From the NCBI GenBank assembly GCA_003220495.1, contig QHSP01000043.1:1-63175 (forward strand): a stretch of DNA of 63,175 bases, in the 5' to 3' direction. Shown here piece after piece: positions 29,335 through 52,717 of the stretch; position 1 is the stretch's first letter, and each line of letters begins with the position of its first letter. A program made the position numbers and the translations under genes. The stretch is from Candidatus Rokuibacteriota bacterium (lineage in GTDB: Bacteria; Methylomirabilota; Methylomirabilia; Rokubacteriales; CSP1-6). A model generated the notes under the pieces. The model did not search any database. It was not told where the DNA came from and saw only the letters and a list, made by a program, of their open reading frames with translations.

Positions 29335-30714
29335 GTGCAACCCGGTTCCTGGGCGGCGCTGCGCCGGCCGCCTCACGTCTTCTCCGCGGTCGTCGTCGTC
29401 CTGAGCATCCTCGCGCCCGCGTTCAGCACGTTCATCACCGCGACGGTCTTGCCCTCGGCGATCGCCGAGATCGGTGGGCTCGCGATCTATGCGTGGGCCT
29501 CGACCGCGTACGCCGTCGGCTCGATTCTGGGCAGCGCCGGGAGCTCGGTGGCCGTGCGCAGGATGGGAATGCGGCACGCGGTCGTGCTCGCGGTCTGCGT
29601 GTTCGTCGTGGGCGCGGCCATCTGCGCCTCGGCGCCCAGCATGCCCGTCGTGGTCGCGGGTCGCGCGCTGCAAGGTCTCGGCGGCGGCACGCTGATCGCG
29701 TCGGCGCACAGCATGGTGCGCGAGCTCTTCCCCGAAGCCCTGTGGCAGCGCATGCTCACCACGATCTCCTGCGCCTGGGCGATCCCGGCGCTCGGCGGGC
29801 CGGTCGTGGGCGGCGTGCTGGCGGGGCTCGGCCACTGGCGCGCGGCGTTCTGGGCCATGGCGCCGATCGCGGTCATCGCCGGCGCCCTGACGTGGCGCAT
29901 TCTTCCCGGGTCCGAGCCCCGCGACACAATGTCGACACGAGTTCCGCTCGGACGGCTCGCGCTCATCTGCGCGAGCGTGCTCTGCATCGGCTCGATCGCC
30001 AACACGCCCGCGGCCGCCGCGCGCGCCGCGCTCGTCGTCGGCGCCGTGGCGGCCGTGGCGCTCATGCTGCGTCTCGACGCCAACGCCGCCGCGCGCCTCT
30101 TCCCGACGGGCATGCTCTCGCTCGGGAGCCGGATCGGAAAAGGGTTCTGGATGGTCTTTCTCCTCGGAATGTCGACCACACCAGGCGGCGTCTACGTCCC
30201 GCTGCTGGTGCAGGTGCTCCACGGCGTCACGCCCGCCGCCGCCGGATACCTCTACGCGGTCCAGTCGCTCTCGTGGACGACGGGCACGATCCTGAGCGCC
30301 CAGGTGTCCCCCGTTCGAGCGCGTGCGGTGCTCATCCTCGGCCCGCTGCTGACGACGACCGGATTCACCGGCCTCTTCTTCACGATCGGCTCGGGCCCGG
30401 TCGCGGCCATCGCGGCATCGCTCATGCTCGTCGGCATCGGGATCGGGACGTGCTGGGCGCACATCGGCACCGCCATCCTCTCGTCGGCGCGCCCGGACGA
30501 GGGCGCGTTGACGGCGTCGATGATCCCCAGCACGCAGCTCTTCGCGGTCGCGCTCGGCGCCGCGCTCTCCGGCGTCATCGCCAACGCCGCCGGCCTCGGC
30601 GGCGGCGCGTCGGCGGGGGCGGCCGCGCTCGCCGGCACGTGGCTCTTCGGCAGCTTCGTGGCGGCGCCGCTCAGCGCCTTCGTCATCGGCTCGCGCCTTC
30701 GTCCGGCTCGCTGA
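29335..30714 (+). CDS. MFS transporter, DHA2-like drug exporter family
   Basis: The 459-aa integral membrane protein has about 12-14 hydrophobic segments. The motif-A-like loop is GSSVAVRRMGMRHAV, and the motif-C-like helix ISCAWAIPALGGPVVGGVL matches the antiporter signature of drug exporters (AWAIPALGGPxxGG). The GTG start was taken 54 nt after the penicillin-binding-protein stop. It converges with the ABC-2 genes. The substrate is unknown. Confidence 0.85.
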   Translation: MQPGSWAALRRPPHVFSAVVVVLSILAPAFSTFITATVLPSAIAEIGGLAIYAWASTAYAVGSILGSAGSSVAVRRMGMRHAVVLAVCVFVVGAAICASAPSMPVVVAGRALQGLGGGTLIASAHSMVRELFPEALWQRMLTTISCAWAIPALGGPVVGGVLAGLGHWRAAFWAMAPIAVIAGALTWRILPGSEPRDTMSTRVPLGRLALICASVLCIGSIANTPAAAARAALVVGAVAAVALMLRLDANAAARLFPTGMLSLGSRIGKGFWMVFLLGMSTTPGGVYVPLLVQVLHGVTPAAAGYLYAVQSLSWTTGTILSAQVSPVRARAVLILGPLLTTTGFTGLFFTIGSGPVAAIAASLMLVGIGIGTCWAHIGTAILSSARPDEGALTASMIPSTQLFAVALGAALSGVIANAAGLGGGASAGAAALAGTWLFGSFVAAPLSAFVIGSRLRPAR

Positions 30715-30730
30715 GACGCACCCGCCGCCG

Positions 30731-31555
30731 TCAGCCCGTTCGCTTCAAGCGTCCCGTGCGCTTGGCCCAGCTCTCGACACGACCGAAGACCCAGAGCCCC
30801 AGCGGAATCAGCACGAAACCCATCGCGACGAGAACGACGAGCTCGCCGGTGACCGCCGAGAGCGGCGCGGCCGCCAGCCGCTCGGCCGTCGTTGCCGGGT
30901 TCCCGATGCCGACGAGCTTGCGGCACGCTGACAAGGTGTAGGTCGCCGGCGACAGCGCCGAGAGCGGTTGCACCCAGGTCGGCAGGACGTCGACTGGATA
31001 GTAGACGCCGGACACGAGCAGGAGCGAGCCCTGAAAGATGTGCGTGCCCTCGGCGCCGCGCTCGGGGCTCAGCACCGGCAGCGCGGCGGCCATCACGCCG
31101 AGACCGACGAAGGCCAGCGTGCTCGCCAGGATCACGACGAGGACGCCCGGGAGGTTGGCGCCCGTCAGGCTCAGCGGGGTGAACAGCATGAGCCCGCCCA
31201 GCACGACCGTGGTGTTGACGATGCTGTTGCAGAGCGCGAACAGACTGATCCCCAGCAGGTGCACGAGCCGGGACACCGGCGCCATGAACGTGTACTCGAG
31301 GGTGCCCTCCCAGCGCTCGTACGCGATCGACATGGCGATCTCGTTGTAGAGGACCGACAGGAAGTTCCACAGCAACGCGCCGACCACCAGCGTGAGCGTC
31401 AGCTGATGGTCGTGGGCGGCCACGCCGATGAGCGCGACCGCGGCCGCCCCGGTCAGCGCATAGAAATTGAAGACGACCACCCAGGAGAGATAGCGGCGCG
31501 TCAGGTGATAGCCGCGAAACATGAAGGCCCACGTCTGGCGGAGCCCGCGCTCCAT
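30731..31555 (-). CDS. ABC-2 type transporter permease
   Basis: The 274-aa protein has six membrane segments in the ABC-2 layout, including the conserved QGSLLLVSGVYYPVDVLPTWVQPLSALSP near the C-terminal third. It forms the membrane half of an exporter with the ATPase encoded directly upstream. I start it at the ATG with GGAGGG 5 nt upstream. In-frame GTG/ATG codons 12-15 nt earlier overlap the ATPase stop and are possible alternatives. Confidence 0.85.
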   Translation of the reverse strand: MERGLRQTWAFMFRGYHLTRRYLSWVVVFNFYALTGAAAVALIGVAAHDHQLTLTLVVGALLWNFLSVLYNEIAMSIAYERWEGTLEYTFMAPVSRLVHLLGISLFALCNSIVNTTVVLGGLMLFTPLSLTGANLPGVLVVILASTLAFVGLGVMAAALPVLSPERGAEGTHIFQGSLLLVSGVYYPVDVLPTWVQPLSALSPATYTLSACRKLVGIGNPATTAERLAAAPLSAVTGELVVLVAMGFVLIPLGLWVFGRVESWAKRTGRLKRTG

Positions 31556-31566
31556 CGTGCCCTCCA

Positions 31567-32379
31567 TCACCGGTCCGTCGGCGCCCCGGTCGGCGTGTCG
31601 CCGGCCGCCGCCGTCTCCTCCGTGAGCCCGATGAAGGCGTCGTCGAGCGTCGCGGCCGACGCCTGACGCCGGAGCCCTTCCGCGGTGCCCTCGGCGACCA
31701 GGCGTCCGTGAGCGAGAAATCCGATGCGAGCGCAGAGCCGCTCGGCCTCGGCCATGTCGTGCGTCGTCAGCAAGATCGTCGTGCCCTCGCGGCGTCGAAG
31801 ATCTTCCAGGAACGCCTGCACATCGCGCCGACTCTTCGGGTCGAGGCCCGTCGTCGGCTCGTCGAGCAGGAGCAACGGCGGATTGATCATCAAGGCGCGC
31901 GCGATGCTGATCTTCTGCTGCATGCCGCGACTCATCTCCTCGAGCGGGGCCGAGAAGGTGCGCTGTTCCATCCCCAGCTGCTCGAGGACGTGCATCGCCT
32001 TCCGCTCGGCGCTCGCGGGATCGAGCCCGTAGAGCAGGGCCGTGTAGAGCAGGTTCTCGCGGGTCGACAGCTTCTTGTAGAACGCGGCGTCCACGCTCAC
32101 CCGCCCGATCAGCCAGCGCACCCGGGCCTGCTCCTCGGGCAGGCGGTGTCCCAGCAGCCGGACGTCGCCGCCGTCAGCGACGAGCAAGGTCGACAGAATG
32201 CGGATCAAGGTCGACTTGCCCGACCCGTTGGGGCCGAGGAGGCCGTAGGTGTCTCCGCGCGCCACCTCGAAGGAGACGCCGGCGAGCGCCCACGCCTCCG
32301 GCGCGTCCGTGCGGCGCCGTTTTCGGCGCCGGTGAAACTGCTTTCTCAAGTTACATACCTGAATAGCCGGCAACGTCAT
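31567..32379 (-). CDS. ABC-2 transporter ATP-binding protein
   Basis: The 270-aa ATPase has Walker A GPNGSGKST, Q-loop region VSVDAAFYKKLS, a divergent signature EEMSRGMQQKI (instead of LSGGQ), Walker B LLLLDEPTTGLD and switch His LLTTHD. The divergent signature is common in the CcmA/DrrA/NodI exporter subgroup. GGGAGGT precedes the ATG. It exports lipids, polysaccharide or drugs; which of these cannot be told. The 32380-32606 gap upstream holds presumed promoter DNA with no motif I can name. Confidence 0.9.
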   Translation of the reverse strand: MTLPAIQVCNLRKQFHRRRKRRRTDAPEAWALAGVSFEVARGDTYGLLGPNGSGKSTLIRILSTLLVADGGDVRLLGHRLPEEQARVRWLIGRVSVDAAFYKKLSTRENLLYTALLYGLDPASAERKAMHVLEQLGMEQRTFSAPLEEMSRGMQQKISIARALMINPPLLLLDEPTTGLDPKSRRDVQAFLEDLRRREGTTILLTTHDMAEAERLCARIGFLAHGRLVAEGTAEGLRRQASAATLDDAFIGLTEETAAAGDTPTGAPTDR

Positions 32380-32606
32380 CAGACGACCTCCCGCGCAGCG
32401 GGGACACCGATGCGCGCAAACGTGAAGCGACGAGATCGAGCTCGGGAGGGACCGAAGTAAGCGGCGAGCGCAGGGCGCGCAGGGAGCGCGCCGTCTTGTG
32501 CGGCTGGCTTACTCGGTCAGGTCAATGAGGAATGTGCATCGACTTCACCGAACAATGTGGAAGCCTACATCCGCCGCGGACCCGTTGCAAGCGCCCGCGT
32601 CGTCGG

Positions 32607-33812
32607 TTACAGCAGCAGCCCAAACAGCGCCTTGATGATCTCGTCCGCCGGCACGATCGAGAGCGCCAGCGGCAGGAGCGGAATGACGGCGGCGCTCACG
32701 ATCTGGACGATCGTGTCCCGGCCGAACGGCACCGGCTTCATCTCGCCCACGACGTCATAGCTGTTGGCGAGGTCCGCGAGGGACTGGATGTCGGCGCTCC
32801 CGATCAGCGGCTCGCCCGCCGGCGCGGTCCCCTGGATCCACTTCGCGTGGAACTCGGCCGTGTAGCGGGCGGCCAGCGCGCCGTACTCCTGCCGGCCCTG
32901 ACGCTTGAGCGCGAGCAGGGTCTTCGAGAAGACGCACGGCGGCCCGAGGACGAGGAGAAGCTGCAAGACAACGAAGGCGACGATCTCGTACTGGAACGAG
33001 ACCAGGGTTTTGCCCTGAAAGAGGATGCGGCTGCCGACGACCGCCGAGAGCACGATGCTCTGCGCCAGGATGACCGGGACGAACGCGTGTGAGGCCAAGC
33101 CCAGAAACCCCAGGCCGCCAGCTCGGTCAGGGTGTGTCGGAGTGAGACGGAGCGGCAGGCGCGACACGCTCCGGAGGAACACGAACCAGACGATGAGCCG
33201 GAAGTACCATCGGAAGAGAAGGAACTGAAAGATCGGGATGCTCACGTGGCGGTACCACCAGCCCGCCAAGGTCAAACGGCTCTGGGCGCCGTCCACGATC
33301 GCGAACCAAGTCGAGCTGCTGAGCGCGCTATCACCTCTCCAGATCGTCCATCCGAAGCCGAAGACGAACACGACCATGCCCACTTCGACGATCAGGGAAT
33401 TCCTCAGGCGCGTGGCACGGTCGATGGCGGCCTGAAGTCCCGGAAGCGTCTCGGACGTGACGAGACCGGCATCCACGAAGTTCCGGACCACCCCCCGGAT
33501 CCGTTGGTGAACCACAACCTCGGCCAGGAGGAGGATCGGGATGGCGACGAGAAAGCGGGCATGGACCTCGAGGTCGTAGAGAAACGGGACCGGAACGGCG
33601 TGCCCGACGGCGAAGCGCTCGTAGGAGGTCAGCAACAAGAGCGGCAGCCACGCGATTGCGGGAGTCGTGATCATCCGGCGCGCCAGCAGCTCGAGGGCGG
33701 GTCCGGTCAAGAACAGGCGCTGCCAAAGTTGATACAGAGGACCGCCGAGCACGAGCGAGAAGTCGTGCGGGTCCGAGAACAGCGCCGGCGATTTCACCGT
33801 CGTCCGCGTCAC
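32607..33812 (-). CDS. Multi-pass membrane protein of unknown function
   Basis: The 401-aa protein has about seven or eight hydrophobic segments (AIAWLPLLLLTSYERF, FLVAIPILLLAEVVVHQ, SIPIFQFLLFRWYFRLIVWF, FVPVILAQSIVLSAVVG, EIVAFVVLQLLLVLGPP, IPLLPLALSIVP). It carries polar motifs (YDLEVHARFL, LTPTHPDRAGGLGFLG) that look conserved rather than random. I recognise no named family. The GTG start lies 4 nt after the amidase stop, so the two form an operon. Confidence 0.75.
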   Translation of the reverse strand: MTRTTVKSPALFSDPHDFSLVLGGPLYQLWQRLFLTGPALELLARRMITTPAIAWLPLLLLTSYERFAVGHAVPVPFLYDLEVHARFLVAIPILLLAEVVVHQRIRGVVRNFVDAGLVTSETLPGLQAAIDRATRLRNSLIVEVGMVVFVFGFGWTIWRGDSALSSSTWFAIVDGAQSRLTLAGWWYRHVSIPIFQFLLFRWYFRLIVWFVFLRSVSRLPLRLTPTHPDRAGGLGFLGLASHAFVPVILAQSIVLSAVVGSRILFQGKTLVSFQYEIVAFVVLQLLLVLGPPCVFSKTLLALKRQGRQEYGALAARYTAEFHAKWIQGTAPAGEPLIGSADIQSLADLANSYDVVGEMKPVPFGRDTIVQIVSAAVIPLLPLALSIVPADEIIKALFGLLL

Positions 33813-33816
33813 GTCC

Positions 33817-35322
33817 CTAACGTCCCGGTGGCGGCGTCCGGCCGAGCACGCGCTCGATCGCGATCCCGATCGCGAGGAGCCGCTGATCGCTGCCGCGCGG
33901 GCCGTCGAGCGAGATGCCGACCGGCAGCCCGGACGAGGACCCGAGCCCCGCGGGGATCGTCAGCCCGGGAATCCCGGCGTTGCTCCCGGGATCCGTGTTG
34001 CGGATGAACAGCAGGAACGTCGGTAGGCTGCTCGCGTCCGGGCCCTGCGTGGCGGCGACCGCCGGCGTGGTCGGCCCGATCAGCGCGTCGATGCCGTACC
34101 GCTGGAACGCGTCGGTGAAGATCTTGAGCAACGCCGGGCGCGCCTCCCGCATGGCCGCCGCGTAGAGCGGCGCCGCATCGACGACACCGTTCGGAGCGGG
34201 GAGCTTTCGCGGCACGACCAGGCCGTCGTAGGTCGCTTTCACGTCTTTGCTGGCGATCTGCGCGGCCACCTGCTCGACGCTCACGCCGGTCTGGTACTTC
34301 GCGAGATAGGCCTTGAGGTCGTCGTAGGCCTCGTAGAGCGCGACGGGAAAGCTGGCCGCGTCGTTCGCCTTCTGCAGATCCGGCATGTCCACGTCGACGA
34401 TGGTGACGCCGACCCGGCGGAGCTTCTCGAAGACGGTCTCCGTCACGGCGCGCGTGTCCACGTCCAGATCCTTGAAGAAGTAGGCCCGGTTGACGCCGAG
34501 CCTCACGCCGCTGAGCGGCGCCGGCGCCGGTGGGCGGCCGCCGGTGATGACCGCGTCGAGCAGCGCGACGTCGGCGACCGTCTGCCCCATGGGACCGACG
34601 GTGTCCCGCGAGTGCGAGATCGGCGTGACGCCGTCCTGGCTGTAGCGGCCGATGGTCGGCCGGAGCCCGGCGCCGCCCGACACCGCTGCGGGGATCCGGA
34701 CCGAGCCGCCGGTGTCGCTGCCGAGCCCGCCCGGCGCCAGCCGGGCGCCGATCGCCGCGCCCGTTCCGCTGGAGCTACCGCCCGCGAAGCGCGTCCGGTC
34801 GTACGGGTTGCGCGTCCCGATCGGCTGCGATGTGAAGAATGCCTCGTTGTAGCCCGAGATGCCGAAGGCGAGCTCGTGCATGTTCGTCTTGCCGAGGATG
34901 ACCGCGCCCGCGTCCACGAGCTTCTGGACGGTCGGCGCGTTTTCCTTCGGGACGAACCCGCGCAGGGCCGGTGTCCCCGCGGTGTTCGGCAGGCCGGCGA
35001 CGTGCGTGTTGTCTTTCACGACCAGCGGCACGCCGTGCAATCGGCCCAGCCGCTTGACGGTATCGAGATCGGCGTCGGCCCGCTGCGCCGCGGCGAGCGC
35101 CCCGGCGCGGTCCAGGGTGACGTAGACGTTGAGACCCAGGTTCGCGTCCGCGCGCGTGATGTACGCCTGGGTCAGCTCGACGCTCGTCACTTGCCTCGCG
35201 CGAACCAAGGTCGCGGCGTCGCTCAGGCTGAGCTGGGTCAGGTCGGCCGGGCGTGGCGGGAGGCTCGCGCAACCCGCGGCGGCGAGCGCGAGCGTCAGCA
35301 CGGCGGCGGATCGTCGGAACAT
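33817..35322 (-). CDS. Amidase-signature hydrolase, lipoprotein
   Basis: The 501-aa protein has a lipoprotein signal (LTLALAAAGC, Cys18). The amidase-signature domain shows catalytic Lys in VPLVVKDNTHV and the Ser-rich core FAGGSSSGTGAAIGARLA with GSDTGGSVRIPA, which supplies the cis-Ser and nucleophile Ser. The family hydrolyses amide bonds; the lipoprotein form would act outside the cytoplasmic membrane. AAGGAG precedes the ATG. The substrate is unknown. The gap 35323-35476 contains only divergent promoter DNA. Confidence 0.9.
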   Translation of the reverse strand: MFRRSAAVLTLALAAAGCASLPPRPADLTQLSLSDAATLVRARQVTSVELTQAYITRADANLGLNVYVTLDRAGALAAAQRADADLDTVKRLGRLHGVPLVVKDNTHVAGLPNTAGTPALRGFVPKENAPTVQKLVDAGAVILGKTNMHELAFGISGYNEAFFTSQPIGTRNPYDRTRFAGGSSSGTGAAIGARLAPGGLGSDTGGSVRIPAAVSGGAGLRPTIGRYSQDGVTPISHSRDTVGPMGQTVADVALLDAVITGGRPPAPAPLSGVRLGVNRAYFFKDLDVDTRAVTETVFEKLRRVGVTIVDVDMPDLQKANDAASFPVALYEAYDDLKAYLAKYQTGVSVEQVAAQIASKDVKATYDGLVVPRKLPAPNGVVDAAPLYAAAMREARPALLKIFTDAFQRYGIDALIGPTTPAVAATQGPDASSLPTFLLFIRNTDPGSNAGIPGLTIPAGLGSSSGLPVGISLDGPRGSDQRLLAIGIAIERVLGRTPPPGR

Positions 35323-45504: not shown

Positions 45505-45843
45505 ATGAACATGATTCGTCTCTACACCGGGAACGACGGCCAGACCCACATCGAAGAGCTGGATCTCGCCACGCACCCGAAGCTGACGACCATGCAGGCG
45601 ACCAAGGGCATCGTGTTCAGGACGACGAAGCCCGGGCACTTCTCCGACTGGCACAACGCGCCCCGCCGACAGTTCGTCATCACGCTGGCCGGCGAAGTGG
45701 AAATCGGCCTCGGCGACGGCACCGTGCACCGCTATGGTCCGGGCCACGTCACGCTCGCGGAAGACCTCACCGGCCGCGGCCACACGACACGCGTAGTTGG
45801 AAGCCAACCCCGGTTGTCAGTCACCATCCCACTGGCAGACTGA
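45505..45843 (+). CDS. Small cupin protein
   Basis: The 112-aa single-domain cupin has the motif-1 region FSDWHNAPRRQFVITLAGEVE and motif 2 YGPGHVTLAEDLTGRGH. The conserved His and Glu residues are partly present (one His in motif 1, and the R-Q-F replacement), so metal binding is uncertain. GAGGAG lies before the ATG. It is flanked by the MDR and second LigB-like genes. Confidence 0.8.
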   Translation: MNMIRLYTGNDGQTHIEELDLATHPKLTTMQATKGIVFRTTKPGHFSDWHNAPRRQFVITLAGEVEIGLGDGTVHRYGPGHVTLAEDLTGRGHTTRVVGSQPRLSVTIPLAD

Positions 45844-47672: not shown

Positions 47673-49070
47673 ATGGCATCGCTCAGCCGGCAGCTCGCAC
47701 AGTGGGTCGTCGGACTTCGTTACGAAGATCTCCCGCCGGAAGTGGTCGATCGCGCCAAGGGGGTCACGCTTCACGGGCTCGCGTCCGTGCTGCTCGGCTC
47801 ACTGACGCCGGGCGGCCGCCAGGCGGTGAAGCTGATCAGCGACGAGGAAGCCGGCGTGAAGCACGGCGCCACCATCATGGTGGACGGCGCCAGGGTGACG
47901 AGGGGTGGCGCCGCGTTCGCGAACGCCGAGATGGCGATGGCGGGCGGCAAGTGGGATACCTTCCGCATGCTGACGCACCCGGGGACGAGCATCATCCCCG
48001 GCGCCTTCGTCGCCGCGGAGACGGCCAGCGCCTCGGGACGCGACTTCCTCACCGGCCTCGCGGCGGGCTACGAAGTCATGGAGCGGATGGCCGCCGACTT
48101 CATTCCCACGGTGATGGCGCGAGGCTTCCACTCCGGGGTGGTGTTCGGCATCTTCGGACCCGCCGTCGCCGCCGCGAAGATCATGGGCTTCACCGAAGAT
48201 CAGGTGAACAGCACGATCGCGCTCTGCGCGAGCCTGGCGGCCGGCAACCTCGAGGGGGCGCGTAGCGGCGGCCGCGCGCTGCGCGAAGGCGCCGCCGTGC
48301 GTAACGCGATGCTGGCCGTCGCGCTGGCCCGGCAAGGACACGTCGGTGGCGAGACGGTGCTCGAGGGCGACGCCGGCTTCTACCACGCGTATGCCGGCAA
48401 CAACCAGGGCCGGCTCACCCACAGCTTCGTCGGCGACACGCAGACGAGCCTCGACAAGATCACGGTCGCGCTCGGCAAGAACTGGATGTTCCTCGAGACG
48501 CTCTACCGCATCTACTCGACGGCCGGCTACAACATCGCCCACGTCGACGTCACCGCCAAGCTCTGCGAGGAGCACGACATCGCCTACAAGGACGTCGAGC
48601 GCGTCGAGGCGGTGGTGAACTGGCTCGAGACCCAGTATCCGAGCCCCGCATTTCCGAGCCGTCGCGAAGATCTGGAGTCCAGGCCGGGCAGCACGGCGTA
48701 CTACGCCGCCTACGGCGTGGTGAAGCGCGGCTTCCCCGTGCTGAAGGCGCAGGTCGATCCGGCCGGCGCCGACGACCCGCCCGAGGTGCTCGATCTGATG
48801 AAGCGCGTGACCTTGATCCCCTCCCACACGATGACGCTCTTTGGTCCGCGGATCACGATCTTCACCCGGGACGGCAAGAGCTACACGAAGCAGTCCACCG
48901 GCCGCGAGTTCATCTGGACCTTCGCCGAAGAGACGCGGAGGATTCGCGACGTGATCCCAGGGCTGCCGATTCCGGCGGCGCAGTTCGAGGAGATCATTGC
49001 GACCTGCCGCGATCTCGACCGCCAGGACCGAGCCGACCGGCTCGTTCAGCTCACCTTGAAGAAGGCCTGA
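47673..49070 (+). CDS. MmgE/PrpD family protein (paralogue 1)
   Basis: The 465-aa protein has the MmgE/PrpD fold of 2-methylcitrate dehydratase-like enzymes (RQLAQWVVGLRYEDLPPE, AFANAEMAMAGGKWDTF, LTGLAAGYEVMERMA, FHSGVVFGIFGPAVAAAKI, MTLFGPRITIF). The usual D(D/T)xx..GHPS region is altered to MLTHPGTSIIPG. The family includes dehydratases, isomerases and cis-aconitate decarboxylase, so the reaction is open. AAGGAGA precedes the ATG. The gap 47562-47672 shows nothing. Confidence 0.85.
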   Translation: MASLSRQLAQWVVGLRYEDLPPEVVDRAKGVTLHGLASVLLGSLTPGGRQAVKLISDEEAGVKHGATIMVDGARVTRGGAAFANAEMAMAGGKWDTFRMLTHPGTSIIPGAFVAAETASASGRDFLTGLAAGYEVMERMAADFIPTVMARGFHSGVVFGIFGPAVAAAKIMGFTEDQVNSTIALCASLAAGNLEGARSGGRALREGAAVRNAMLAVALARQGHVGGETVLEGDAGFYHAYAGNNQGRLTHSFVGDTQTSLDKITVALGKNWMFLETLYRIYSTAGYNIAHVDVTAKLCEEHDIAYKDVERVEAVVNWLETQYPSPAFPSRREDLESRPGSTAYYAAYGVVKRGFPVLKAQVDPAGADDPPEVLDLMKRVTLIPSHTMTLFGPRITIFTRDGKSYTKQSTGREFIWTFAEETRRIRDVIPGLPIPAAQFEEIIATCRDLDRQDRADRLVQLTLKKA

Positions 49071-50582: not shown

Positions 50583-51266
50583 TCAGAGCAGACTCTCGAC
50601 CGTTCTCAGTAGCGGGCTGCTCAGGAGCGAGGGCTGGTGGGCCGGGAGGTCGACCCAGACGGGGAACTCACGCCCCGTGATCTTGCGGATCTTGGTCGGG
50701 CCGCCCAGGGACATCAGCGTTTGCCACGTTTCTGCGAGACCGGGATGCGCCAATAGCAGCAAGGCGCGCCCGAGGTAGCCGTCGGCTATGCCGGACGGGG
50801 TTAGACTCGCTTCCGCTGTCGCGGCGGTCAATTCATCCGGCCCCAGGAGCCGCCGGGTTACGCCCGTCTCCCACGCGAGGACCGGGCAGAGGCCAGGGCC
50901 TGTTTGACCCAGGGCGGCGATCCAGTGGCGGCGAGCGATGGCGAGAAAGCGGCGATAAGTATCGCCAATGCCATCGGGAGCGTCCTCGTGCTCCCTCAAG
51001 AGGATCGACGGAAACGGGGCGTCCGGCAAGCTATAGGCTCGGATCAGCGACCCGGGCACCGGGCACCCGAAGGGAGCGACCTGCGACAAAAAGCTCGTCA
51101 GTGTCTCACCACCGAGGACGGCCTGCGGGATAGCCAGTACGTAGGACTTCACGTCCGGTCGGGTGACGGCGGCGACCAGCACCTCGCCCGCCGGCCAGGC
51201 GCGCCCATTGCCGTTCTCGGCCGCGCCGATTTCGGCCGCGCTGCAACGCCGTTGCCGGACGCTCAT
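50583..51266 (-). CDS. Hypothetical protein, 227 aa
   Basis: I do not recognise this protein. It is a soluble mixed sequence with motifs such as PGSLIRAYSLPDAPFPSILL, RRHWIAALGQTGPGLCPVLAW and KIRKITGREFPVWVDLP. The frame continues upstream to 51599, but that part is antisense to the selenoprotein gene, so the ATG at 51266 is preferred. It is divergent from the selenoprotein with 42 nt between. Its base composition looks slightly less GC-extreme than that of its neighbours, which may point to a different origin. Confidence 0.55.
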   Translation of the reverse strand: MSVRQRRCSAAEIGAAENGNGRAWPAGEVLVAAVTRPDVKSYVLAIPQAVLGGETLTSFLSQVAPFGCPVPGSLIRAYSLPDAPFPSILLREHEDAPDGIGDTYRRFLAIARRHWIAALGQTGPGLCPVLAWETGVTRRLLGPDELTAATAEASLTPSGIADGYLGRALLLLAHPGLAETWQTLMSLGGPTKIRKITGREFPVWVDLPAHQPSLLSSPLLRTVESLL

Positions 51267-51308
51267 GCTCCGGGTAACATGCCAGACATCATCTCCAAGG
51301 AGGGCCAA

Positions 51309-51602
51309 ATGGCCGAAGGCAAATGTCACGTCGAGATCGTGTACTGCGTCGTCTGAGGGTACCTCCCCGTAGCCGTCAGTGTGGCGGCTGAGCTGTCCTC
51401 GATCAACTACCGGGAAACGGCGATCACCCTCACCCCGTCCGACAGCGGCAGGTTCGAAGTGTACCTCGACGGCAAGAAGCTCTACGACCGGAAGGCACCG
51501 GGAGCCGTCGACTTCCTGCCGGCGCTGAAGGAGATCCACAAGATCCGCGACGCGATCAAGGAGATATTCGGCCAGGCGCCAGCGACGACGGCGGCCCACT
51601 AG
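51309..51602 (+). CDS. SelW-like (Rdx family) selenoprotein with in-frame UGA
   Basis: The 97-residue thioredoxin-like protein is read through a UGA at 51354-51356 as selenocysteine. The redox motif is IVYC-V-V-U-GYL (Cys13, Sec16), the CxxU/CxxC motif of the SelW/SelT/SelH (Rdx) family. Downstream the family pattern continues in frame: LPVAVSVAAEL, TAITLTPSDSGRFEVYLDG and KKLYDR. AAGGAGG (51297-51303) lies 5 nt before the ATG. Read conventionally, this gives a 15-aa stub plus a separate GTG-started 73-aa frame that lacks the active site. A SECIS-like hairpin follows the UGA. The role is thiol-based redox chemistry in the cytoplasm. It is followed by VOC and methyltransferase genes at short spacing. 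Confidence 0.88.
51371..51389 (+). promoter_or_regulatory. Bacterial SECIS-like hairpin
   Basis: The stem AGCCGUC / GGCGGCU (7 bp with one U.G) closes a 5-nt loop AGUGU. The loop starts 22 nt after the UGA, and its second base is G. Bacterial SECIS elements lie in the coding region directly after the UGA, with an apical loop 16-37 nt away and a G among its first two bases, so the geometry fits. Confidence 0.7.
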
Positions 51603-51613
51603 GGAGAGCGCTC

Positions 51614-51970
51614 ATGGCTTTCGGTACGCATCACGTCCACGTGAAGACGCGAGACCCCAAGCAGACGATGCAGTTCTATGTCGACAATCTGGGCGCGACC
51701 CTCGCCGCCGACATGGGCGCGCGCGGCTATCGCGTGAACCTGCACGGGTTGCAGCTGAACATCACCGGGCTGATCGACTCGCAACGCCGCGAGCAGCACT
51801 ACGGCCTCGAGCACATCGCGGTCGACACCGACGACTATGCGGGAACTCTCGCCCAGTTCCGGGCCAAGGGCATCCGCATCCTCGAAGAGCTTCCGCCCAA
51901 CAACGGCCGGCGCGTCTGCTTCCTGGAGGCGCCCGACGGCGTGCAGATCGAAGTGATCGAGAAGGTGTAA
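51614..51970 (+). CDS. VOC superfamily (glyoxalase/bleomycin-resistance-like) protein
   Basis: The 118-aa vicinal-oxygen-chelate protein has two beta-alpha-beta-beta-beta halves. Candidate metal ligands are His in THHVHVKT, His in YGLEHIAVDT and the C-terminal Glu in VQIEVIEK. Activity could be dioxygenase, isomerase or resistance. It starts 11 nt after the selenoprotein stop with AGGGAGAG before the ATG. Confidence 0.87.
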   Translation: MAFGTHHVHVKTRDPKQTMQFYVDNLGATLAADMGARGYRVNLHGLQLNITGLIDSQRREQHYGLEHIAVDTDDYAGTLAQFRAKGIRILEELPPNNGRRVCFLEAPDGVQIEVIEKV

Positions 51971-51973
51971 GCC

Positions 51974-52717
51974 GTGGGTGCCCGCCGGTCTGGTGAGCCC
52001 GACCGCGTCAAGCAGGAGGTCGCGGCACACTGGAACCGGCGGGCGCCCGGATTCGACGCAGATTTCGGCCACAGCATCCGCACGCCGGCCGAGCGCGCCG
52101 CGTGGGATCGCATCCTCGACCTCGTGGTTCCCGCCCGCGGCAAGCTCGACGCGCTCGACGTCGGCTGCGGCACCGGCTTTCTCGTCTTCGAGCTCGCGGC
52201 GCGCGGCCATCGCGTCACCGGCGTCGATTTCGCGCCCGCGATGATCGCCGAAGCCCGGCGCAAAGCGGCCGACCGCGCCATCGCGGTCCGGCTCGAGGAG
52301 GCCGACGCCGAGCAGCTTCCGTTCGCGCCGGCCAGCTTCGATCTGGTCATCAGTCGCCATTTGCTCTGGACGCTCCCGCACCCGGAAGCAGCCATCGACG
52401 AGTGGATCCGTGTCCTGCGCCCGGGGGCGCGCCTGGTCGTCGTGGACGGCCAGTTCGATCCTTCTGCCCTGACCCCGCCGGCCGGAAGCGCGCGATCGAG
52501 CCAGGAGTACGCGGCGGTCGGCGATCAGCTTCCCTTCCTGGGCGGACGGTCGCGCGAAGAGATCGAGCGGCTCCTCACGGCCCACGGCCTCGGCAGTGTT
52601 TGCAGCGACCCGCTGCACGATCTGGTCGCCGCGCAGGCGCAGCGGATGGTCGACGAGGGGCTCGAGCGGCGCACGCACCGGCGCTACGTCGTGTGGGGCG
52701 ACCTCGCGTCTCGCTAG
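51974..52717 (+). CDS. Class I SAM-dependent methyltransferase
   Basis: The 247-aa protein has SAM motif I LDVGCGTGFLVFEL, the acidic loop VTGVDFAPAMI, motif II-like ADAEQLPFAPASFDLVISRH and RVLRPGARLVVVDG. These are of the UbiE/Methyltransf_11 type. It starts at GTG only 3 nt after the VOC stop, with GAGAAGG inside the VOC end, so the two are coupled. The substrate is unknown. Confidence 0.88.
   Translation: MGARRSGEPDRVKQEVAAHWNRRAPGFDADFGHSIRTPAERAAWDRILDLVVPARGKLDALDVGCGTGFLVFELAARGHRVTGVDFAPAMIAEARRKAADRAIAVRLEEADAEQLPFAPASFDLVISRHLLWTLPHPEAAIDEWIRVLRPGARLVVVDGQFDPSALTPPAGSARSSQEYAAVGDQLPFLGGRSREEIERLLTAHGLGSVCSDPLHDLVAAQAQRMVDEGLERRTHRRYVVWGDLASR

Follow-up and report, generated by a model that had tools for sequence, protein, structure and literature searches.

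A predicted SelW-like selenoprotein gene with a conserved in-frame UGA in a Rokubacterial genome

Introduction

Bacterial SelW-like selenoproteins with a CxxU redox motif go back in the literature to 2006 or earlier; the portion of PMC1794560 drawn on here gives 10 such sequences. In ocean samples, SelW-like proteins and SelD are the most widespread selenoprotein families, and the selenocysteine (Sec) form of SelW-like proteins far outnumbers the Cys form (427 versus 56; PMC2398784, relevant parts). Table 1 of a review (PMC13188914) describes SelW-like proteins as CxxU with one Sec and gives UxxU for other families. Neither that table nor the relevant parts of PMC9312934 and PMC2398784 list UxxU for SelW-like proteins: CxxU is the only form named. 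Section 7 of PMC13188914 calls the biological role of the prokaryotic proteins largely uncharacterised.

The same review, pointing to Cell Rep 2026 45:116760, mentions a Methylomirabilota metagenome-assembled genome predicted to carry 63 selenoprotein genes. We found no title or abstract dedicated to Rokubacterial selenoproteins in the open literature (subscription papers fell mostly outside this scope), and the sections of PMC9012183 that we consulted hold nothing on them.

Here we describe a gene in a stretch of 63,175 nucleotides from a Candidatus Rokuibacteriota bacterium (contig QHSP01000043.1, assembly GCA_003220495.1), analysed as a whole and referred to as the window. Because SelW-like CxxU proteins have long been known in bacteria, the gene adds a member to the family and is unsurprising as a kind; what makes it of interest is its lineage, the set of three SelW-like selenoproteins that its genome encodes, and the UxxU variants found in relatives.

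Results

Reading frame, family and fold

The gene (51309-51602, plus strand) opens at ATG 51309, meets an in-frame TGA at 51354-51356 and closes at TAG 51600-51602, giving 97 residues when the TGA is read as U. Its AGGAGG ribosome binding site (51298-51303, plus strand) has the ATG 5 bases downstream, and all 10 genes of its type (type A, below) have a GGAGG-type site ahead of the ATG. The redox motif C-V-V-U (51345-51356, plus strand), whose last codon is the TGA, continues into GYLPVAV. A sequence-only reading of the window had proposed precisely this frame and motif, a well-placed ribosome binding site, and a conventional outcome limited to a 73-residue piece from GTG 51381 or an antisense minus frame, and the sequence matches it in every detail: the list of open reading frames under the conventional code (no gene caller was run) holds a 73-aa frame from that GTG and a 338-aa minus-strand frame at 50583-51599. 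Conventional annotation would truncate genes of this type at the UGA.

The proposed SelW-like (Rdx) identity has support from Pfam, NCBIfam, a PDB sequence search and Foldseek. The Pfam Rdx model (PF10262) scores 52.6 bits against a cut-off of 22.6 (E 5.4e-14) over residues 7-73, a match that spans the UGA; NCBIfam TIGR02174 is barely passed (35.5 bits, cut-off 34.2), and the narrower equivalog NF041051 (SelTWH_Campy) is missed (61.4 bits, cut-off 88). Six distinct sequences were returned from the PDB, the best of them annotated as SelW-related. An AlphaFold model built from 29 aligned Rokubacterial proteins is of moderate confidence (pLDDT 71, pTM 0.61) and sets C13-V-V-U16 after the first strand (residues 5-13) and ahead of a helix (19-31); among the Foldseek matches listed for it, the top 22 are SelW-family chains, mouse SelW (2npb) included. 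Cys13 and the Sec column are invariant in all 29 proteins, and the UGA falls on the Cys/Sec column of both the PDB chains and the Rokubacterial proteins. These results support a SelW-like (Rdx) product with the thioredoxin-like SelW fold.

Conservation through the UGA

The window protein was searched against 99 genomes, its own included, and matches in 30 of them were read singly: 10 are type A (the window gene itself plus nine relatives, 75-97% identical), 18 are type B and two are Cys forms with CTQC (L035, L044). Loci L055-L063 are the same as L024-L032 and were counted once. TGA stands at the Sec codon in every one of the 10 type A genes and of the 19 type B genes (the 18 plus a copy in the window's own genome, L053). 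Past it, each of the 10, the window's among them, runs on for another 80-83 codons; homologues in close relatives that stop at this UGA with no downstream conservation had been named beforehand as a refutation, and none of the type A genes is of that kind. Downstream of the UGA, dN is 0.042 and dS 0.529, a ratio of about 0.08 (45 pairs), compared with 0.15 upstream, where one pair with no dS value was dropped. Third codon positions account for 45 variable columns, against 13 and 8 for the other two, of 69. Type A is under strong purifying selection downstream of the UGA.

A true stop at 51354, produced by a recent nonsense mutation or a sequencing error in a Cys gene and leaving a pseudogene or an artefact, would need only one base, the distance between UGA and the Cys codons UGU and UGC, and errors do occur in draft metagenome assemblies. 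Such an accident is refuted by the TGA shared by 10 type A genomes and by all the type B genes; moreover, no type A gene with Cys at the Sec codon was found in the 99 genomes searched, and selection persists past the UGA. We consider it very unlikely.

The substitution pattern also bears on the minus strand. The 338-aa minus-strand frame runs antisense through the selenoprotein gene, and if it were the real gene the plus-strand reading would be its shadow. It is open across the selenoprotein in eight of the 10 loci, and its portion beyond the selenoprotein is conserved; in the other two (L030, L031), however, a stop interrupts it within the selenoprotein region, and the substitutions follow the third positions of the plus frame. 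A divergent minus-strand gene of 227 aa (50583-51266), found upstream in nine of 10 type A loci, can start from ATG 51266, clear of the selenoprotein, and has no Pfam or NCBIfam match. That the longer minus frame is the true gene is therefore extremely improbable.

The SECIS hairpin

The bacterial SECIS apical hairpin (51371-51389, plus strand, loop AGUGU), whose geometry the sequence-only reading called SECIS-like, is real and fits the published bacterial rule. Folded alone, AGCCGUC-AGUGU-GGCGGCU reaches -10.9 kcal/mol. Under our own implementation of the bSECIS rule of PMC13188914 (as set out in its section 5 and Figure 2 legend), it lies 22 bases from the UGA with a 3-base loop after an A-U inner pair, 9 bp and -11.9 kcal/mol, and the G for which the rule asks within the first two loop positions comes first here. 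Geometry alone is weak evidence, because the rule is also passed by 190 of the window's 1383 other TGAs, counted on both strands, and 42 of these do so at least as strongly; the single-sequence RNA fold of 51350-51400 gives a z of only -1.49, and Rfam has no match anywhere in the window.

Conservation across the 10 genomes is what lifts the hairpin above chance. Among codons with a fixed residue, two of eight vary in the hairpin (codons 5-12 past the UGA), compared with 30 of 44 in the remaining downstream part (Fisher p 0.043), and these two form both sides of the outer pair, their third positions covarying in 10 of 10 genes (A-U in five, G-C in five). The best tree calls for two changes to explain the paired switch, though just one is required by well-supported branches. 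The FdhA-like gene on contig C38 of the same genome has a nearly identical apical hairpin, GUC-AGU-CU-GGC compared with GUC-AGU-GU-GGC in the window, at 18 rather than 21 bases past its UGA.

The same region speaks to the idea that the UGA closes a 15-residue leader and that a second, independent protein of 73 aa begins at GTG 51381. The GTG-started frame is indeed open. Nevertheless, the eight codons between UGA and GTG keep their residues (apart from one Leu/Phe change) and show some synonymous changes, which is how coding sequence behaves; the GTG itself begins in the hairpin loop, and a start there would remove the redox motif and the first strand. We give this arrangement very little credence.

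Selenocysteine machinery and other UGA-containing genes

The window's own genome (G000; 5.98 Mb in 159 contigs, 98% complete) carries the complete gene set of the selenocysteine system that the in-frame UGA had been taken to imply, and the lack of which had been named as fatal to the claim. On contig C152, selB (29930-31813; 357 bits, cut-off 242), selA (31858-33210; 591 bits, cut-off 268) and tRNA-Sec (34565-34658; 69.8 bits, cut-off 47, anticodon tca, that is UCA) share one strand, and selD is found on contig C1 (77537-78481, L019; 337 bits, cut-off 125).

Several other genes in this genome contain an in-frame TGA. The selD gene itself encodes a selenoprotein (SCAGUASK), and a strong, perfect 8-bp hairpin lies 21 bases past its UGA. 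Two FdhA-like genes (C41:4923-6800, L064; C38:24673-25467, L065) have a TGA at the U-H-A/G-P position, and neither reaches the TIGR01591 cut-off. Two further SelW-like genes lie on C130 (4993-5214, L097, type C) and C120 (55163-55372, L053, type B).

Any code in which UGA is read would keep the frame open, which speaks for insertion of some other amino acid, by general reassignment of the stop or by plain readthrough. Against it, TGA still terminates the nearby genes at 45505-45843 and 47673-49070, the genome holds the full Sec set, and in the ocean samples the family commonly takes the CxxU form with Sec (PMC2398784, relevant parts); we regard this option as having scarcely any likelihood.

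Among the 99 genomes, selA exceeds its cut-off in 84, and tRNA-Sec does so in 51 of 59; the Sec trait is therefore common in the class. For this class-wide trait, selA presence is a weak discriminator: of the 51 genomes in which an Rdx match contains a UGA, 47 have it above cut-off, versus 37 of the 48 others. The four of the 51 in which selA was not found above cut-off are G005, G029, G038 and G055. G029, G038 and G055 have a UGA-containing Rdx gene and no selA match at all, and G038 is rated 100% complete. No tRNA-Sec above cut-off was found in G001 and G008, both fragmented drafts, which keep the gene.

Neighbouring genes

Following the selenoprotein stop by an 11-base gap is a gene for a VOC/glyoxalase-superfamily protein (51614-51970, plus strand; Pfam PF00903, 1.9e-12), and next in the row is a class I SAM-dependent methyltransferase (51974-52717, plus strand; Pfam PF08241, 2.9e-28). 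By tblastn of the neighbours, the VOC gene is adjacent in nine of 10 type A loci, the window counted, and in the eight homologous loci measured it comes 11-17 bases on (stop codon included); the methyltransferase is present in eight of 10, with the copy in L059 cut by a contig end. Of the type A loci, L063 (G048) has neither gene and L060 (G056) has no methyltransferase. Arsenite- and selenoprotein-methyltransferase models do score on the latter, but far under every cut-off, and for this reason we assign it to neither. The conserved VOC-methyltransferase row suggests, by gene order, an operon with the selenoprotein gene, from which no function follows.

Further Rdx types in Rokubacteria

Type B (L053 in the window's own genome) shares with the window protein the Sec column, the Rdx domain and a SECIS-like hairpin with its AGU at equal distance. 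It differs in sequence (33-41% identity), in its YCGEUNYLPQASSLQAA-type motif, in its length (75-77 residues) and in its occurrence in many genera of the family. An ungapped SECIS scan finds no hairpin that passes in 18 of 19 type B genes and a weak one (-5.1 kcal/mol) in the remaining gene; for most of these genes RNAfold gives a stem that contains a 1x1 mismatch.

A search with the Rdx family returned 75 matches in 53 of the 99 genomes; 60 of these matches contain a single TGA and the other 15 contain no TGA. We looked closely at 13 of the 75: 11 of the 15 that lacked a TGA, plus G023:C109 and G058:C41. Of the other four lacking one, G072 and G050:C92 are the two Cys forms described above, and G025:C15 and G018 were left unread. 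Eleven of the 13 belong to a third, divergent type C with the motif KRC-x-x-U-x-DLRREA, in which the UGA mostly lies outside the match of the Rdx profile; L081 (G058) and L082 (G008) are type B-like. A type C profile made from 10 genes picks out 17 genomes at 81 bits or more, the window's own (G000:C130) included. The type C alignment (A3) covers 10 of the 17 type C genes and leaves out L089, L091, L097, L098 and the UxxU genes L100-L102; L076 and L091 are one gene.

Like the window protein, type C (L097 in the own genome) has an Rdx domain, above the Pfam cut-off in the two members scanned, and Sec at the second motif position. It differs in its KRCxxU-DLRREA motif and in that, in four relatives, the Cys codon is likewise UGA. 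These UxxU genes, with two in-frame TGAs, are L099 in G059 (RRULIURDL), L100 in G042 (RRULFUGDL), L101 in G025 (RRULVUGDH) and L102 in G050 (RRULFUGEH), and their sequence is kept past both TGAs. Three of the genomes belong to one genus and G059 to another family, so that at least two lineages are involved. As read from these four drafts, UxxU type C is possibly a SelW-like protein with a diselenide, and it is the most novel thing that we observed.

Discussion

With frame, family and fold, the genomic Sec machinery, and the conservation of UGA, protein and hairpin established by computation, the window gene is almost certainly a SelW-like (Rdx) selenoprotein gene in which UGA 51354 is decoded as Sec and translation continues to UAG 51600. 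From these findings we infer Sec insertion itself, the redox cycle and the operon. Ribosomes would initiate at ATG 51309; SelB, acting on the hairpin at 51371-51389, would bring selenocysteyl-tRNA(Sec) to UGA 51354, and translation would proceed to the UAG. The product would be a small thioredoxin-like redox protein with Cys13-Val-Val-Sec16 between the first strand and the first helix, most likely alternating between a selenenylsulfide and a reduced selenolate/thiol pair as it donates electrons to a partner or accepts them from one. The VOC and methyltransferase genes are likely co-transcribed with the selenoprotein gene.

The result adds a hidden gene to genomes from a soil lineage that has been little studied and shows that this lineage encodes a Sec system and several SelW-like selenoproteins. 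It seems probable that the SelW fold is a selenium speciality of Rokubacteria: at least three SelW-like selenoproteins (types A, B and C) would occur in a single genome, type A would be tied to the VOC-methyltransferase row, and in some relatives the Cys of type C would have become a second Sec (UxxU), working through a diselenide. The clade offers a natural series (CxxC, CxxU, UxxU) in which to ask why cells pay for selenium in a SelW fold.

Among known systems, mouse SelW (2npb) and the bacterial Cys forms (2oka, 2fa8, 2obk, 3dex, 2p0g) have the same fold as the window protein by Foldseek, at low sequence identity (24-33%); in the bacterial chains seen residue by residue (2obk, 2p0g, 2oka), Cys stands at the position of its Sec. 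With the bacterial SelW-like proteins (SELENOW-like, PF10262, CxxU), as described in PMC13188914 (Table 1) and the part of PMC1794560 drawn on here, it has in common the Rdx domain, a CxxU motif near the start of the domain, a UGA-encoded Sec and a bacterial SECIS within the gene. It differs from them in its CVVU followed by GY, its 97 residues with a variable C-terminal tail, its score below the NF041051 cut-off, its Rokubacterial host and its adjoining VOC gene.
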